Shown: piece after piece, positions 1 through 5,991 of the stretch
How the letters are laid out: every line of letters begins with the position of its first letter
Numbering within the stretch: the first letter of the stretch is position 1
Assembly (NCBI GenBank): GCA_012513545.1
Contig: JAAZCB010000135.1
Span: 1-7,380, forward strand
Reading direction: 5' to 3'
DNA length: 7,380 bases
Source: Clostridiaceae bacterium
GTDB lineage: Bacteria; Bacillota_A; Clostridia; Acetivibrionales; Acetivibrionaceae
Made by a program: the position numbers and the translations under genes
The notes under the pieces: model-generated
Told to the model about the DNA's origin: nothing
What the model saw: the letters and a program-made list of their open reading frames with translations, nothing else
Databases searched by the model: none

Positions 1-466
1 CCGTCCCTCCGAATTTTTTTACTCCTTCAACTACTGCAGCAGTATCATACAAAAGCATATCGATACCTGCCTGCATATAGCCTTCAACGGTTCCCTTCAC
101 CTTCTCAAGGTCAAATTCATTACCTGCACATGGAAGATGAATGGATTGCCACAAATAAATATTCGGATAGGCAGATTTGAGTCGCCTGACCACGTCATAG
201 TCCTCCTGACTTAAGAACTGTATGGCATATGGTTTCAACTTCTCAATAAGATAATGAATCCTTTCTTCCTTCATCTGATACACAAGAGCAACAGTTGGAA
301 GAGGACTTGCATAAAAAATCTCTGCTGCCCTTTCTATAGAAAGAGACCTTTTTGAAAATTCAGTCTCAACAACTACTCCAACAAAATCCGCTCCCTCATG
401 TCCTGCAAGCAAAGCATCCTCAACGCTGGTTGTCCCACAGATTTTAACCTTGTAACCATCCTTCAT
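1..466 (-). CDS. TrpF-like phosphoribosylanthranilate isomerase paralogue (3' part cut by window edge)
   Basis: The first 155 codons are present, starting at ATG 466 and leaving the window at base 1. The N-terminus VKICGTTSVEDALLA followed by GADFVGVV is the TrpF signature. Cys10 in KICG is the expected general base, and Asp141 in LLYDTAAVV followed by KKFGGT matches the catalytic Asp and the phosphate loop of the TrpF (beta/alpha)8 barrel. TrpF converts N-(5'-phosphoribosyl)anthranilate to the carboxyphenylamino-deoxyribulose phosphate in tryptophan synthesis. The start lies 23 bases inside the upstream GHMP-family gene, with AAAGGG nine bases before the ATG, so the two are translationally coupled. 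No trp genes are in view, and the partner is an RFAP-synthase-like protein, so a role outside tryptophan synthesis is plausible. Family assignment is confident; substrate is inference. Confidence 0.85.
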   Translation of the reverse strand, partial: MKDGYKVKICGTTSVEDALLAGHEGADFVGVVVETEFSKRSLSIERAAEIFYASPLPTVALVYQMKEERIHYLIEKLKPYAIQFLSQEDYDVVRRLKSAYPNIYLWQSIHLPCAGNEFDLEKVKGTVEGYMQAGIDMLLYDTAAVVEGVKKFGGT

Positions 467-1670
467 GCTGAAAAGCCCTTTCTACCCCATTTTCCTTTAT
501 TCTTGCACCGACATTGTCCACCTCGGTTTCAATTATCCTGCTTTCAGGAATATTCTGAGTTCTTAAATATCTGATAATCCTGTCATAAACATCCTGCTTC
601 CTGGTAAGAGCAAATATAGTAGGGCCGACAGAACTCATACCTGCAACCTCAGCGCCTATCTCCCTGAAATTACTTATGTAATTATAAATTGGAGCACCAT
701 AAGAACCGTGCTGCTCACATTCAGCTCTTTTTGAGCCTAGAAATGATAAATCGAACATGGCATCACCCATTGATTTTAAATCCCTTTTAATCATGGCAGG
801 CAACATATTCATAAGTATTATCTGCGACTTTATACATGACTGCATAGAGTCCAAATACCTGGCTCTTCGAAGTAAGAGTTCCGCTTCTGACTCTGCAGCA
901 GTTTCTTTTCCGATAAATTCACTTTCAAGACTTGGAACATCGGGAATGAAAATTATAACCTTGGTATCAGGTAAATCAATTCTGTATACTAATTCAAGAT
1001 CATCAGTTCCCAATACCCAACCGCCGTTCACACCAACCATGGCTCCTATACCTGTTTCGAAAGCACGTATAAGATACCCGTTACCGGTAGCGCTCTCCTC
1101 ACAAGAGTGGTACCCGAGAATTCTTCTGAGTTCCCTCCCTGTAAAAGGTCTGCCAAGTACTTCATTGATTCCGATACACACTGCACACATTGAACCCGCA
1201 GAGGATCCCATGCCGACATGTCTTCTCTTGTGATCATAAAGCTCTATTTCAAAACCACCGGGATAATTAAGCAATTCTTTGAAAATATGACAGAAGTGTT
1301 CGATAATAAGAGTTCTTTCTCCATTAACAATAATTACAGGCTCCCTAAGAGACTTTACTTTTGCATGAAAATAAATTTTCACACCTATTCCGATGCCGCC
1401 ACCACCTGCACGATCCAGATTGAACCTGTTCATATCCAGTACTGAGGGATGCAACCTCGCTGGTACAGTAATCTCAACTTCCCGTTCTACAACTTCACTA
1501 ACTGTCCTTGGGGCTACACCAAACCTTTCCAATGGAATTATAAAATTCTTCTCTCCAGGTTCAAATTCCTCCAAAACAGTAGTCACACGGTCAATTAAGC
1601 TACCTACGATATTAATCTCAATACGCTGCTTTGCAGGTGGACATTCCTGCACTGATTGACCATTATACAT
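444..1670 (-). CDS. GHMP-superfamily protein, RFAP-synthase-like
   Basis: A 408-residue protein starting at ATG 1670, chosen because GGAGGAG sits five bases upstream. It resembles beta-ribofuranosylaminobenzene 5'-phosphate synthase (MptG family), which joins PRPP to an aromatic acid with loss of CO2 and pyrophosphate in methanopterin synthesis. Visible motifs in order: ARLHPSVLDMNRF (about residues 71-83), a glycine-rich AGGGGIGIGV (88-97), the GHMP phosphate loop HVGMGSSAGSM (151-161), FETGIGAMVGVNGGW (204-218) and the C-terminal GMSSVGPTIFAL (344-355), which parallels the family's GQSSWGPT motif. The reading frame stays open another 47 codons upstream to ATG 1811, but that start lacks a ribosome site. 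It is cotranscribed with the overlapping TrpF-like gene. Clostridia are not known to make methanopterin, so the aromatic substrate is unknown. Another GHMP activity, such as a small-molecule kinase, is possible. Confidence 0.8.
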   Translation of the reverse strand: MYNGQSVQECPPAKQRIEINIVGSLIDRVTTVLEEFEPGEKNFIIPLERFGVAPRTVSEVVEREVEITVPARLHPSVLDMNRFNLDRAGGGGIGIGVKIYFHAKVKSLREPVIIVNGERTLIIEHFCHIFKELLNYPGGFEIELYDHKRRHVGMGSSAGSMCAVCIGINEVLGRPFTGRELRRILGYHSCEESATGNGYLIRAFETGIGAMVGVNGGWVLGTDDLELVYRIDLPDTKVIIFIPDVPSLESEFIGKETAAESEAELLLRRARYLDSMQSCIKSQIILMNMLPAMIKRDLKSMGDAMFDLSFLGSKRAECEQHGSYGAPIYNYISNFREIGAEVAGMSSVGPTIFALTRKQDVYDRIIRYLRTQNIPESRIIETEVDNVGARIKENGVERAFQHEGWLQG

Positions 1671-1675
1671 TTTTT

Positions 1676-1682
1676 CTCCTCC
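1676..1682 (-). promoter_or_regulatory. Ribosome binding site of the RFAP-synthase-like gene
   Basis: GGAGGAG followed by five A residues and ATG 1670. It decides the start at 1670 rather than the upstream in-frame ATG at 1811, which has no such site. Confidence 0.8.
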
Positions 1683-1721
1683 ATTCCTTTTTAAATATCT
1701 GACTGAATAGCCAAATTTTGC

Positions 1722-1740
1722 TTTTACAACTTGTGTAAAA
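1722..1740. repeat. Perfect inverted repeat TTTTACA-N5-TGTAAAA in the operon leader
   Basis: Two perfect 7-base arms (1722-1728 and 1734-1740) flank ACTTG. It lies between the promoter (-10 at 1844-1849) and the start codon of the RFAP-synthase-like gene. The size and symmetry suit a dimeric repressor operator, but this is inferred from symmetry alone. Confidence 0.4.
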
Positions 1741-1804
1741 ACAGGTAAGAGGAGAAAACATATACTCCAAATTTGTATTTCAAGATATATGAACTGTTTA
1801 TTTT

Positions 1805-1827
1805 CTACCATCCTACCATGCTACCAT
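1805..1827 (-). repeat. Three direct repeats of ATGGTAG, period 8
   Basis: On the minus strand ATGGTAG occurs three times separated by single bases (1821-1827, 1813-1819, 1805-1811), just downstream of the predicted transcription start near 1837. Each unit contains an ATG; the last one opens the reading frame running into the downstream gene. It could be a protein-binding array, a translation decoy or replication slippage. Confidence 0.6.
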
Positions 1828-1843
1828 ACTAATCTACAAATAG

Positions 1844-1872
1844 ATTATATACTCTAAATCAATCCTTTTCAA
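1844..1872 (-). promoter_or_regulatory. Promoter of the RFAP-synthase-like/TrpF-like operon
   Basis: The -35 TTGAAA (1867-1872) and -10 TATAAT (1844-1849) are separated by exactly 17 bases, a near-consensus housekeeping sigma promoter. Transcription would start near 1837, giving a leader of about 167 bases. The rest of the 367-base gap between the coding regions (1671-2037) shows no convincing gene. Confidence 0.7.
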
Positions 1873-2024: not shown

Positions 2025-2050
2025 TCAGGTGAAGCTTCTACTCCACCTGA
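2025..2050. repeat. Inverted repeat spanning the stop codon of the SLH-protein gene
   Basis: TCAGGTG (2025-2031) and CACCTGA (2044-2050) are perfect 7-base arms around a 12-base loop that contains the TAG stop at 2038-2040. No T-run follows on either strand, so it is not a standard intrinsic terminator. It may limit 3' decay or be part of a dispersed palindromic repeat. Confidence 0.35.
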
Positions 2051-4248
2051 AGGTTTTTAGATATGATAACCTCATATAAATGGTTCAATACTGTGGCTGC
2101 TTCCGCTCGTGTCAAATTATCACATGGCCTGATTTTATTATTGCTGCCCTTTATGATACCGGCAGCAACCAACTTCGCTATACTATCCCTTGCATAATCT
2201 GCTATCTGGTTGGAATCTGAAAAGGAAGACAGGTCTGAAGCATCCTTAATACTAACCCCTGAAATTTCAAGAGTCTTGTCAATCAGCACAATCATATCCT
2301 GCCTTGATATGTTTCCTTTGGGATTAAATCTGTCTTTACCAATGCCTCCGGTTATGCCCAGATTCCTGGCAGTATTAACTGCATCATAATAATAATCCCT
2401 TTCTGAAACATCAATAAATTCCTTTACCGGTTCAGTATCATGTTTATCAAGTACTCCCATAAGCATCATAACAAAATCAGCCCTGATAATTTTATGGTCC
2501 GGAGAATAGGTTTTTAGTGATTTACCATTAATAATTCCCCTGCCTGCAAGAGCTTCTATTTGTTTTTTCGCCCAGGACATCTGGATATCCTCAAATGTTT
2601 TTTTATTAAAGGCTACCCCGTATAACCCGGTTTGAGCAGCTGAAAATTCTACCGCACCTGTCTTCTGGTTATATTTTCCGCTTCTTAGCACATGAAATTT
2701 GTCATTCTCATCTATAGAACATGCAACAATATTATGTGAGTTTTCCAATTCTGATTCTTGTGGCGTATATGGTATTGATATATAAACCGGTGCCCGTTCA
2801 TTTCTCCAGTCAAGCTTTTTTCCGTCAACAAGGATAGAAATGTCCAACAAGGGCCGCCCCTCAAAAATCTCCTTCAGATCCCCGGACAATTTATTTGTAT
2901 CAATACTGGATATTGATAATTCAACTTTTTTGGCTTCTTTTAATATATTTTCCGAAAACATGGCTTCAGGAAATTTTATAGATATTACAGAGTTACTAAC
3001 ACTTCCTCCCAGCGCAAATGACTCTGCTGGAAATTCCTTGGTAATAGTTTGTTTTACAAGATACCCGACCTCATCTTCTTTGTGTACAACAATTGTATCG
3101 CTGCTTTTTGCCTTAATTCCAAAAGGCTGGGTAAAGCATATTCCTCCGGCACCTATAAGCTGTGCTCTGACATATGTACCGAGTTTGTCTTCATAATCAT
3201 TCAGATCAATGGAATTTCCCCGGGCAATAATATTTCCATCGGCAATCCATTCGATTGTCTCATAGTCTTCAGCTTCAACAGCAATAGTATCTTGAGCTTC
3301 ATCCACGATAATATTGGTAATAGCAGGCTGTGGTCCGTTTCCTACATACTTTTCTCCAAGCTCCCTCCTTGATACTCTGGCCACAGAATAAAATGCACCA
3401 TTCTCCATGGAATAACGAAGATTATCCAAAGTATTCTCCGGCATCAGCATCATATTGAAGCTGTATCCCGTTGAGCCCGTCGAATGCGTATCATCATTGC
3501 AGAAACCCCATACCGGTCTGTCAGGCATTGTCTGCTTCAGTATATTGTCCCACAGAATCCTGTCACTATAACTATAGCCATCTGTCTTATTGATGATTTC
3601 CATGCCAACACACGAAGGATATTTTTCAAAAAGGTTTACGTATTTTGCCACTGTAGAAGGTTCCTTTGACGCTGCCGCTCCAATTTCAGCCATATCGTCC
3701 GAATAAGTTGCAACATATCCTCCGGTATATCGTCCGGGATGATTAATGTGAGAGATTCCACCTAATGATTCGCATATTGCTATGTTGCTCTCTAATGTAG
3801 CACCCACTCCGTTGGTAAAAGGAGCCCAGAAGGTATTCAAATGATCGGAATTAGACTGCTCGGTTGAAAAAGGAACGCTTATCATACCCTTTCCCCCTCT
3901 TCCATGCCCGGCATTTATCTCAGACAACCGCTCACTTGTAATATACATGGCATCAGAATCCTTTCTGTCCCATGAGGTGCTTGTAAAGTTATGATCTGTT
4001 ATAGCCATAATACTGTAACCTTTGGAATAGTGATCTTCAATCATTTGCTCAGGTTGATTGCCTCCGTCACTTTCAACCGTATGGATATGAAAATTGGCCT
4101 TGTACTGTCCATAAGTTCTCCAATCGACAGTATTATAAGGGTTAATAATTATGTAGTCAACATTGCTTGTCCCGGCTTCAATTACGGGTACTATGTTGAC
4201 AAATATAACCATCAAAATCATGATAACACCAATCAGTTTTTTCTGCAT
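2038..4248 (-). CDS. Secreted PHP-domain phosphoesterase with three SLH modules
   Basis: A 736-residue protein starting at ATG 4248, preceded by GGAGG at good spacing; an in-frame ATG nine codons earlier has no such site. Residues 1-25 form a signal peptide (QKK, hydrophobic core, IEA-G cleavage region). A PHP domain follows: HIH at 54-56, TDHN at 84-87, a possible Glu130/His136 pair, HINH at 167-170 and DDTH at 252-255 supply the expected metal ligands. Residues 320-550 are beta-rich and resemble linker domains seen before SLH modules in clostridial surface proteins. Three SLH modules lie at about 553-603, 611-662 and 674-728; the second and third keep the GI-G and (T/S)R core. PHP enzymes hydrolyse phosphoesters with two or three metal ions; here the domain would act outside the cell, bound to the wall. 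Substrate unknown. Confidence 0.9.
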   Translation of the reverse strand: MQKKLIGVIMILMVIFVNIVPVIEAGTSNVDYIIINPYNTVDWRTYGQYKANFHIHTVESDGGNQPEQMIEDHYSKGYSIMAITDHNFTSTSWDRKDSDAMYITSERLSEINAGHGRGGKGMISVPFSTEQSNSDHLNTFWAPFTNGVGATLESNIAICESLGGISHINHPGRYTGGYVATYSDDMAEIGAAASKEPSTVAKYVNLFEKYPSCVGMEIINKTDGYSYSDRILWDNILKQTMPDRPVWGFCNDDTHSTGSTGYSFNMMLMPENTLDNLRYSMENGAFYSVARVSRRELGEKYVGNGPQPAITNIIVDEAQDTIAVEAEDYETIEWIADGNIIARGNSIDLNDYEDKLGTYVRAQLIGAGGICFTQPFGIKAKSSDTIVVHKEDEVGYLVKQTITKEFPAESFALGGSVSNSVISIKFPEAMFSENILKEAKKVELSISSIDTNKLSGDLKEIFEGRPLLDISILVDGKKLDWRNERAPVYISIPYTPQESELENSHNIVACSIDENDKFHVLRSGKYNQKTGAVEFSAAQTGLYGVAFNKKTFEDIQMSWAKKQIEALAGRGIINGKSLKTYSPDHKIIRADFVMMLMGVLDKHDTEPVKEFIDVSERDYYYDAVNTARNLGITGGIGKDRFNPKGNISRQDMIVLIDKTLEISGVSIKDASDLSSFSDSNQIADYARDSIAKLVAAGIIKGSNNKIRPCDNLTRAEAATVLNHLYEVIISKNLQVE

Positions 4249-4252
4249 AAAT

Positions 4253-4257
4253 CCTCC
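4253..4257 (-). promoter_or_regulatory. Ribosome binding site of the PHP-SLH gene
   Basis: GGAGG followed by ATTT and ATG 4248. It lies between the two candidate in-frame start codons and so selects 4248, which also gives a normal signal peptide. Confidence 0.75.
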
Positions 4258-4313
4258 GACTTTTTCTGTTTTCATAACAGTTTGGATTTTTGAAACTACT
4301 TATCATCATCTAT

Positions 4314-5171: not shown

Positions 5172-5564
5172 CTATAAATTTTTGAGTCTTTCCGTTTCCT
5201 CCTCTATTACCTTTTTGTCGATACGCTCAAACAAGATATTTACGGCTCTTATGTCAGAACCTGATGCCACATCGGTATACTTCCAATCATTAGTTTCGAG
5301 TTTCAGCATATTCTGAATCTTAGATGATGAACCAGGAAGGAATGGTTCCAACAGTATTGAAAGATTGACAATAATTTGGACACAAGTATGGAGTGTATCC
5401 TTACATTTCGTCACGTTGTCTTTCGCTGTAATCCAGGGTTGTTCCTCATCTCCTTTTAATCTGAAATAACTTGCCAGAACGTCGCCTGGCAACAAAGCAG
5501 CGATATGACCAATATGGAGTGACCCATTTGCATAAGGCCAGGCTCCGCCGATGAATATGTTCAT
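5172..5564 (-). pseudogene. Internally deleted methionyl-tRNA synthetase (N-terminus fused in frame to C-terminus)
   Basis: A 130-residue frame from ATG 5564, preceded by AGGAGG eight bases away. Residues 1-39 match the start of class I Met[19 protein letters not shown] carries the HIGH motif at 17-20, followed by [15 protein letters not shown]. From about residue 42, QPWITAKDN and [20 protein letters not shown] match the C-terminal helical region, and the end [17 protein letters not shown] is the usual MetRS boundary. Some 400 residues are missing, including the connective peptide, the KMSKS loop and most of the anticodon domain, so it cannot aminoacylate. The join is in frame and the ORF has no other lesion. 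It lies directly downstream of a methionine T-box, as an intact metS/metG copy would. It may be a recent pseudogene or a retained small protein. Confidence 0.8.
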
Positions 5565-5682
5565 AAACAACTCCTCCTTAAATTACTGTTTTTTAAATAA
5601 AACTTTTTTGTACAAACAAAAAGTCAAGCTCTAAGTGCCCTGATTTTTTCGTTTGCTTTGCTAAAACTAAATAGATACGAAT

Positions 5683-5725
5683 AAAAAAGCCCTCACCCCC
5701 AGGCAATTTATCCTGGGGACGAGAG
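5683..5725 (-). terminator. Intrinsic terminator of the T-box leader
   Basis: On the minus strand a GC-rich stem pairs CTCTCGTCCCCAGG with CCTGGGGGTGAGGG around an ATAAATTG loop, followed directly by CTTTTTT. It ends leader transcripts about 120 bases before the MetRS fragment unless the antiterminator forms. Confidence 0.9.
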
Positions 5726-5991
5726 CATTATACTTCGTGTTACCACCCCGGTTCACTGATGACTTACGAACATCAGCCTCAACAAGTACGTCAGAATAAA
5801 TGAATTCTGGTTATACTCCGGCACTATAACGGGTGCATACGTCGCAGCCTAAGTAAATTAAACATTCGGTGCGAATGCTCCGAGACCATGTTCAGCAATC
5901 TATTCTTTACCCCTTCTCAGCTTCCGGGGTTCTCTGGAAAAGACGTCAACAGCTTACTCTTCTCATCATTGCATTAGTAGTATTATCATTA
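5683..5991 (-). promoter_or_regulatory. T-box riboswitch, methionine-specific
   Basis: The leader contains the T-box core GGGGTGGTAACACG (5749 down to 5736), whose UGGU would pair with the ACCA end of uncharged tRNA(Met), followed by the terminator hairpin. Stem I is recognisable by GATGAGAAGAGTAAG near 5972, the distal ACCCC/GGGGT hairpin with GCTGAGAAG in its loop, and a 3' arm GAACATGGTC that presents AUG (5889-5887) as the specifier codon. Uncharged tRNA(Met) would favour the antiterminator and allow expression of the downstream MetRS fragment. The specifier and the downstream family agree. Confidence 0.9.

Follow-up and report, generated by a model that had tools for sequence, protein, structure and literature searches.

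The stretch described here comprises 7,380 nucleotides of contig JAAZCB010000135.1 from a Clostridiaceae bacterium (GCA_012513545.1) and is referred to below as the window. Its reverse strand harbours two overlapping genes, one for a GHMP-fold protein resembling RFAP synthase (MptG) and one for a protein resembling TrpF (phosphoribosylanthranilate isomerase), which open a conserved four-gene operon found mainly in anaerobic bacteria. A preliminary description, drawn from the sequence alone, had assigned this pair to positions 1 to 1872; the two genes in fact cover 2-1670, with the following features:

444..1670, reverse strand: GHMP-fold RFAP-synthase-like protein, operon gene 1 (408 amino acids, stop included in the span)
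2..466, reverse strand: TrpF-like isomerase, operon gene 2 (first 155 residues; the window edge cuts the gene)
444..466, reverse strand: overlap of the end of gene 1 with the start of gene 2 (23 bases)
1676..1682, reverse strand: GGAGGAG, resembling a ribosome-binding site and read directly, 5 bases upstream of the GHMP ATG

Two genes of a conserved operon

The 23-base overlap lies at 444-466, as originally claimed, and likely couples translation of the two genes. The start of the GHMP gene is placed at 1670 rather than at 1811, where a longer mechanically called open reading frame opens, because aligned relatives begin near 1670. All three landmarks attributed to the 408-residue protein, ARLHPSVLDM, a glycine-rich (GGGG) loop and GMSSVGPT, are present, while GHMP kinase domains match it weakly, yet over threshold. 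Approximately 60 extra residues at the N-terminus precede the part that aligns with RFAP synthase and with ForT, the formycin C-nucleoside synthase. The TrpF-like protein keeps Cys10, S38-x-R40 and Asp141, and the Cys and Asp, on which its description as a TrpF paralogue had rested, do not vary across an alignment of 27 sequences that includes the window's protein.

Both genes are real and their matches are not due to chance, because RFAP synthase model NF040726 matches the first at E 1.3e-25 and TrpF models match the second down to E 1.4e-14, GHMP relatives are 65-90% identical (36-row alignment), and base differences are biased towards the third codon position. Compared with relative L001, the GHMP gene has 222 of 301 base differences at this position, with 186 of 244 differing codons silent. 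The corresponding figures for the TrpF-like part are 85 of 164 and 49 of 112, so that, by codon-position differences, it is less constrained than the GHMP gene. The nearest named matches are metagenome-assembled genomes (MAGs) of Bacillota; together with a T-box leader (below), they bear out the earlier label of a probable clostridium to the level of Bacillota only.

The window stops inside gene 2 and the rest of the operon was read from relatives. Scanning genome contigs with the GHMP protein gave 43 loci, in which genes were positioned by tblastn; at high-GC loci (such as L123, L091 and L092) a simple open reading frame picker had taken wrong strands, and the tblastn positions were used instead. 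Comparison of these neighbourhoods, proposed in the preliminary description, revealed the GHMP gene, the TrpF-like gene (TrpFa), a zinc dehydrogenase of the MDR family and an aldolase in the same order and on one strand in 28 of the 43. Nine further loci end at a contig edge, with TrpFa still visible in seven, the MDR gene in three of those and no room in two. Six deviate: four from Gammaproteobacteria, one from Chloroflexi, and L041, a 41% relative with the GHMP gene alone and no partner genes. The four-gene order recurred in all four regions taken from further GHMP-bearing genomes (L124-L127). When open reading frames of the 43 loci were clustered, the four families occurred in 38, 34, 29 and 25 loci and every other family in at most 7, the next commonest (7 of 43) being ABC ATPases by reading. 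Since no family beyond the four occurs in more than seven, the operon has no conserved transporter gene across these loci. Trp genes were not found after the TrpF-like gene in relatives; the dehydrogenase and aldolase genes stand there instead. The earlier two-gene view correctly identified a recurrent linked unit, which in full contains four genes, two of them beyond the window.

Distribution of the GHMP gene is patchy, with Desulfonema magnum and Pelotomaculum (for example P. thermopropionicum) among its cultured carriers. Within the phylum of Desulfonema magnum its profile matches 14 of 297 genomes, the window's type being present in just three (G002, G005, which is the centre of the set, and G006). 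Six of the 14 carry a weaker form, group B (including G016, the genome of L041), and the remainder group C or RFAP-like forms. The class of Desulfotruncus has the gene in 12 of 113 genomes (centre counted). Two further samples were centred on the gammaproteobacterium G003 (its class, 274 genomes) and on the Chloroflexi MAG G014 (its phylum, 301 genomes); in each, the centre is the sole strong match, and nine and eight others, respectively, match weakly. Because of this patchiness, an accessory pathway fits better than a core cofactor. No relative was found in viral contigs, nor was a match found in plasmids. Seven loci scanned for riboswitches and T-boxes had none upstream of the operon at gathering thresholds, and the two TPP riboswitches at one of them (L019) lie far from it.

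Protein families and the RFAP synthase replacement

Judged by motif, the GHMP protein is RFAP-like. R72, D79, H151, an (S/T)G-x-G turn and SS-x-GP are common to it and RFAP synthases and not to three aligned homoserine kinases, and the homoserine kinase motifs VPATSANLGPGFD and SGAGP are missing from 13 of 13 A-type rows. It possesses PARLH together with equivalents of Asp19 and Arg26, which lie in the third conserved region of RFAP synthase, with R72 and D79 invariant and R87 kept in at least 90% of the 36 alignment rows. Asp19 and Arg26 matter for the use of p-aminobenzoate by RFAP synthase, according to extracts of its published study (PMC6787355). In addition, ForT is the best Protein Data Bank match both by sequence (E 2.5e-6) and by fold, above homoserine kinase in both, and R72 is the kept equivalent of ForT Arg19. 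Extracts of the ForT report describe binding of phosphoribosyl pyrophosphate (PRPP) through Arg19 and Arg135, with the PRPP 5'-phosphate contacting Thr106 and Arg135 (PMC8183095). PRPP binding by the GHMP protein is predicted. Its phosphate-binding loop (GSSAG, GSSIG and alike) is as in kinases, and a homoserine kinase model matches weakly, at 36 bits.

More distant relatives show other arrangements. For the group B proteins of Desulfobacterota (L091-L096, approximately 36-43% identity), the 12-18 kb around the GHMP gene gave no match to TrpF, MDR or aldolase. Group C genes adjoin a TrpF-like gene in two genomes: at L097:234-2139 and L120 the GHMP gene, 26% identical to the family of the window, precedes a TrpF-like gene that forms a separate clade, and at L097 a phosphoglucose isomerase gene comes next. 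By source name, proteins related to group C are also found in Aenigmatarchaeota and Patescibacteria.

The strongest evidence for the function of the GHMP gene arises from a single genome, G298, found through a weak match to the GHMP profile (30 bits). Here TrpFa (57% identity), MDR (73%) and aldolase (76%) genes are followed on one strand, with gaps below 50 bases by tblastn positions, by a gene scoring 351 bits against the RFAP synthase model, above its cut-off of 328. The H4MPT (tetrahydromethanopterin) cyclohydrolase Mch was searched for in G298 and not found. As this curated-level RFAP synthase stands beside TrpFa, MDR and aldolase, the trio can be partnered by the divergent GHMP protein or by a genuine RFAP-synthase-family protein, and the swap connects the GHMP gene with chemistry of the RFAP type outside methanopterin. 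As a control, of 21 RFAP loci of Pseudomonadota (398 genomes), the 20 other than that of G536 (below) have no TrpF-like gene within approximately 1.5 kb (E 1e-4), and at the same threshold none was found near the RFAP gene over the stretches examined at L074, L121, L122 and L160-L164.

The operon is not accounted for by H4MPT genes: of 21 genomes with an A-type GHMP gene one (G329) has Mch, and of 16 genomes tested one (G006) has a curated-level RFAP synthase. The placement of the pair outside trp and methanopterin clusters, as first described, is borne out by these counts, the G298 swap, the dehydrogenase and aldolase that follow TrpF, and a separate trpF in most genomes (below). G006, in which Mch was not found, bears its true RFAP-synthase-family gene (L074:1489-3688) beside a thiolase-like gene (labelled by reading), apart from its own operon. 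At L158:238-2112, a TrpFa-like gene (41%) and an MDR gene (54%) lie right behind an RFAP-like start; this was rejected as an intact RFAP-TrpFa-MDR case, the RFAP-like gene being decayed to 35 codons. In favour of the link, an RFAP-family gene (partial) and a TrpF-like gene also lie side by side in G536, a genome with a second RFAP copy beside Mch on contig C16.

The TrpF-like protein exceeds the cut-off of PF00697 (PRAI) and also matches solved TrpF structures. All NCBIfam TrpF models score the window's protein below their curated cut-offs, and that of L001 reaches 129 of the 215 bits required. Alignment to T. maritima TrpF places equivalents of the Cys, Ser, Arg and Asp of the TrpF site in all 30 operon proteins compared. 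A separate, high-scoring trpF accompanies the operon gene in 12 of 16 tested genomes. In a 48-row tree, operon TrpFs form a single clade (96/87) and, together with stand-alone TrpFs of Desulfobacterota, are split from trp-operon TrpFs (99/97); databases name this operon clade as tryptophan enzymes.

The stand-alone Desulfobacterota TrpFs (L131, L132, L134-L142) were rejected as operon members, no GHMP gene lying within approximately 1.5 kb. Those of L132 and L134-L142, which the tree places closest to the operon TrpFs, are encoded away from trp genes in many Desulfobacterota, with lipoprotein-like and large SecA-like genes (named by reading) as recurring neighbours. A further clade, TrpFb (L006-L009, L159), is without the catalytic Cys and Arg and keeps the Asp; its genes are convergent with the GHMP gene in the four Gammaproteobacteria and adjoin the RFAP-family gene of G536. 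L056, L063, L072, L143, G013:C15 and G015:C11 hold a second TrpD-like, TrpC-like and TrpF-like set (TrpD labelled by reading); the four TrpFs read are without S-x-R, and three of them have PVPWN. Of 16 tested genomes, 5 have an additional trpC adjoining such a trpF, and the set possibly represents another phosphoribosyl-aminobenzoate pathway.

Gene 3 encodes a zinc MDR dehydrogenase whose nearest models, scyllo-inosose 3-dehydrogenase and threonine dehydrogenase, are matched below their cut-offs. Of 29 sequences, 28 retain the catalytic Cys, His and Glu and all 29 the structural zinc Cys. An acidic residue, usual for NAD use, ends beta-2 in all 29 (22 Asp, 7 Glu). Gene 4 encodes a class I aldolase of the DeoC/LacD family, with LsrF its best match by model and by Protein Data Bank sequence; the NCBIfam models it matches include BagB/FevI. 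All 25 gene 4 sequences hold Gly in the column of the MJ0400 Tyr, a residue we take to act in catalysis in enzymes of the FBPA/ADTH-synthase type. With this Gly, and with DHQ synthase II in just 1 of 16 genomes, an ADTH-synthase or GriI/GriH-type role of the aldolase was rejected. Equivalents of LsrF Lys203, Asp57, His58 and Arg254, given in extracts of the LsrF study as the Schiff-base Lys, the general-base Asp and the phosphate-binding His and Arg (PMC2728841), are kept in 25 of 25.

A proposed C-riboside pathway and its alternatives

We tentatively read the four-gene operon and its conservation, together with the retained catalytic residues and the RFAP synthase replacement, as a PRPP-dependent pathway of four steps acting on an aromatic acid, every reaction of which we infer. 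In the first, the GHMP protein would link PRPP through a C-C bond to an aromatic carboxylic acid, of which amino- and hydroxybenzoates are the likeliest, forming a C-riboside with loss of CO2 and pyrophosphate; by analogy with RFAP synthase and ForT, this step is probable. The second, somewhat favoured, is proposed because it is analogous to the Amadori reaction of TrpF. The TrpF-like protein would open the C-riboside and, with a ring donor helping, carry out a vinylogous Amadori shift to 1-aryl-1-deoxyribulose 5-phosphate. A para or ortho donor would allow a quinone-methide-like open form, in which the TrpF Cys/Asp pair could shift the proton. The kept Arg, which binds the anthranilate carboxylate in T. 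maritima TrpF, hints that the carboxylate may stay on the ring.

The NAD-type dehydrogenase would then oxidise the C4 hydroxyl, beside the phosphate-bearing carbon, to yield the 1-aryl analogue of the known LsrF substrate, 3-hydroxy-2,4-pentadione 5-phosphate. Finally, the LsrF-like aldolase would form a Schiff base at C4 and cleave C2-C3, releasing dihydroxyacetone phosphate (DHAP) and an aryl-CH2-CO unit, perhaps on coenzyme A (CoA). A carbonyl would be needed at C4 because aldolases of this kind form their Schiff base on the carbonyl adjacent to the carbon that bears the phosphate, a point raised in the LsrF study (PMC2728841). Support from genomic context is fairly good for the first two steps; the last two we infer, and as written they are the more tentative part. 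PRPP would thus serve as a two-carbon donor, as in tryptophan synthesis. The outcome, an undescribed route from an aromatic acid through a C-riboside to an arylacetyl (CoA) unit and DHAP, the carbon-linked counterpart of the tryptophan route, is conceivable and doubtful. The phosphoribosyl-aromatic or C-riboside cofactor or metabolite first suggested appears right in kind, a core cofactor being the less likely given the patchy gene.

Several observations weigh against this pathway. The GHMP protein falls below both RFAP synthase cut-offs, with 90.3 bits against 328 (NF040726) and 79.9 against 113.5 (TIGR00144), so that its RFAP-synthase likeness, correctly noted from motifs and also seen in its best models, stops short of curated membership. 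In the unrooted GHMP tree, where long branches were flagged, RFAP synthases form one of three bundles, groups A and B another, and homoserine kinases together with group C the third; it sets the window's group apart from homoserine kinases and from RFAP synthases alike, siding with neither kinship. Among GHMP relatives the position of ForT Thr106 varies, and R203, the probable counterpart of Arg135, alternates between Arg and Pro. Gene 4 misses the LsrF model cut-off of 297 bits (269.7 in L001, 260 in L038), the proposed acid Asp251 of LsrF is Val in 25 of 25 sequences, and the aldolase match is partial at L027 (a contig end) and L031, both among the 28 complete loci. Furthermore, the G298 swap rests on one draft genome, and the partial RFAP-family gene that adjoins TrpFb in G536 sits at the end of a small, 3.4-kb contig. 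The four Gammaproteobacteria pair the GHMP gene with the convergent TrpF-like gene without Cys and Arg, with no dehydrogenase or aldolase near the GHMP gene, and the Chloroflexi MAG has the GHMP gene alone. Four of the 16 genomes (G003, G007, G011 and G012) are without a separate canonical trpF and three of these have trpC; it is possible that their operon TrpF also serves tryptophan, or that the assemblies are incomplete.

The RFAP-type first step and the G298 swap would also suit the making of a methanopterin-like side chain. In this reading the ketose would be reduced by the dehydrogenase, giving 1-aryl-1-deoxyribitol 5-phosphate (the form that the sugar takes in methanopterin), and the aldolase would build or lengthen a different part. 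Among solved MDR structures related to gene 3 are a ketose reductase and galactitol-1-phosphate dehydrogenase. However, the scarcity of Mch and of curated-level RFAP synthase speaks against this, as does the acidic NAD-type residue in all 29 dehydrogenases, more usual for oxidation, and the aldolase would have no clear role; such a side chain is unlikely. Breakdown of a 1-substituted pentose, with the GHMP protein as its kinase and TrpF-type isomerisation, oxidation and LsrF-type cleavage following as in autoinducer-2 catabolism, would account for LsrF as best match of the aldolase, the kinase-like phosphate-binding loop and the weak homoserine kinase matches. Yet the RFAP models, at 90 and 80 bits, outscore homoserine kinase at 36, ForT outranks the latter by sequence and fold, the GHMP place in G298 is filled by a curated-level member of a PRPP-using family, and a conserved transporter is missing from the 43 loci, making catabolism of this kind rather improbable.

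A pairing of ordinary genes, with a trpF relocated for tryptophan beside an RFAP synthase for H4MPT, would explain the kept TrpF residues and the four genomes in which no other canonical trpF was found, three of them with trpC. It is largely refuted and very improbable given the separate trpF in 12 of 16 genomes, the distinct operon clade and its split from trp-operon TrpFs, the near absence of Mch and the linkage to dehydrogenase and aldolase. Trp genes past TrpF combined with the lack of any other trpF had been named at the outset as the pattern expected of ordinary genes; relatives have neither trp neighbours nor, in those 12 genomes, a sole trpF.

Neighbouring features and known systems

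Beyond the operon, the window contains two further features:

2038-4275, reverse strand: protein of 745 amino acids combining a PHP/CehA-McbA-like hydrolase part, matched below cut-offs, with three stretches of SLH domains
5172-5570 and 5712-5978, reverse strand: T-box leader (100 bits) and shortened methionyl-tRNA synthetase open reading frame (132 amino acids)

The PHP/SLH protein is outside the four conserved operon families. The 132-residue frame fuses the first approximately 50 residues of methionyl-tRNA synthetase in frame to its anticodon-binding part, the catalytic middle being missing, and is a shortened remnant behind a full-length T-box match.

RFAP-synthase chemistry is already known from methanopterin and C-nucleoside antibiotics. 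Here, gene order links RFAP-type chemistry to a TrpF-like protein, a dehydrogenase and an aldolase in Bacillota and sulfate-reducing Desulfobacterota. As far as literature searches go the operon is undescribed: among the matches listed from the open PMC literature, no title or abstract opening links RFAP-type and TrpF-like genes. It is built from known enzyme families, and the predicted pathway is concrete and testable, offering a new function for a TrpF clade named as tryptophan enzymes. The operon could also serve as a model for the opening of a ribosyl aromatic to a deoxy-ketose. To our knowledge, the enzymes of the matching ring-opening step in methanopterin synthesis are not settled. Extracts of a 2011 inventory estimate seven unknown proteins for methanopterin (PMC3087415).

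Among known systems, Haloferax HVO_2628 is likewise an RFAP homologue in an organism without methanopterin-specific enzymes, and differs in being archaeal and approximately 30% identical to RFAP synthase; the likeness is drawn from its description in extracts of PMC8305020. ForT is the closest solved structure to the GHMP protein, as the structure comparison suggested in the preliminary description confirmed, and its Arg19 has an equivalent, while identity in the fold alignment is 19-20%, Thr106 is not conserved and Arg135 is unsure. LsrF, which processes autoinducer-2, shares with gene 4 the four residues Lys203, Asp57, His58 and Arg254, and neither has a Tyr in the MJ0400 column; gene 4 departs from it in scoring below the model cut-off, in the Asp251 to Val change and in having no lsr-like family among its conserved neighbours. 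The T. maritima TrpF residues of known role, Cys7, Arg36 and Asp126, have aligned equivalents in the operon TrpF, which differs in its separate clade, in partners that are not trp genes and in missing the NCBIfam cut-offs. From RFAP synthase itself the GHMP protein is distinguished by its scores below both cut-offs, its N-terminal extension, an insert at approximately 187-203, its linkage to TrpF-like, MDR and aldolase genes and, as a rule, the absence of H4MPT genes. The two nevertheless have in common the PARLH-DMN-R motif, the His before the pyrophosphate loop, SS-x-GP and the fold, and in G298 a true member of the RFAP synthase family occupies the GHMP place.

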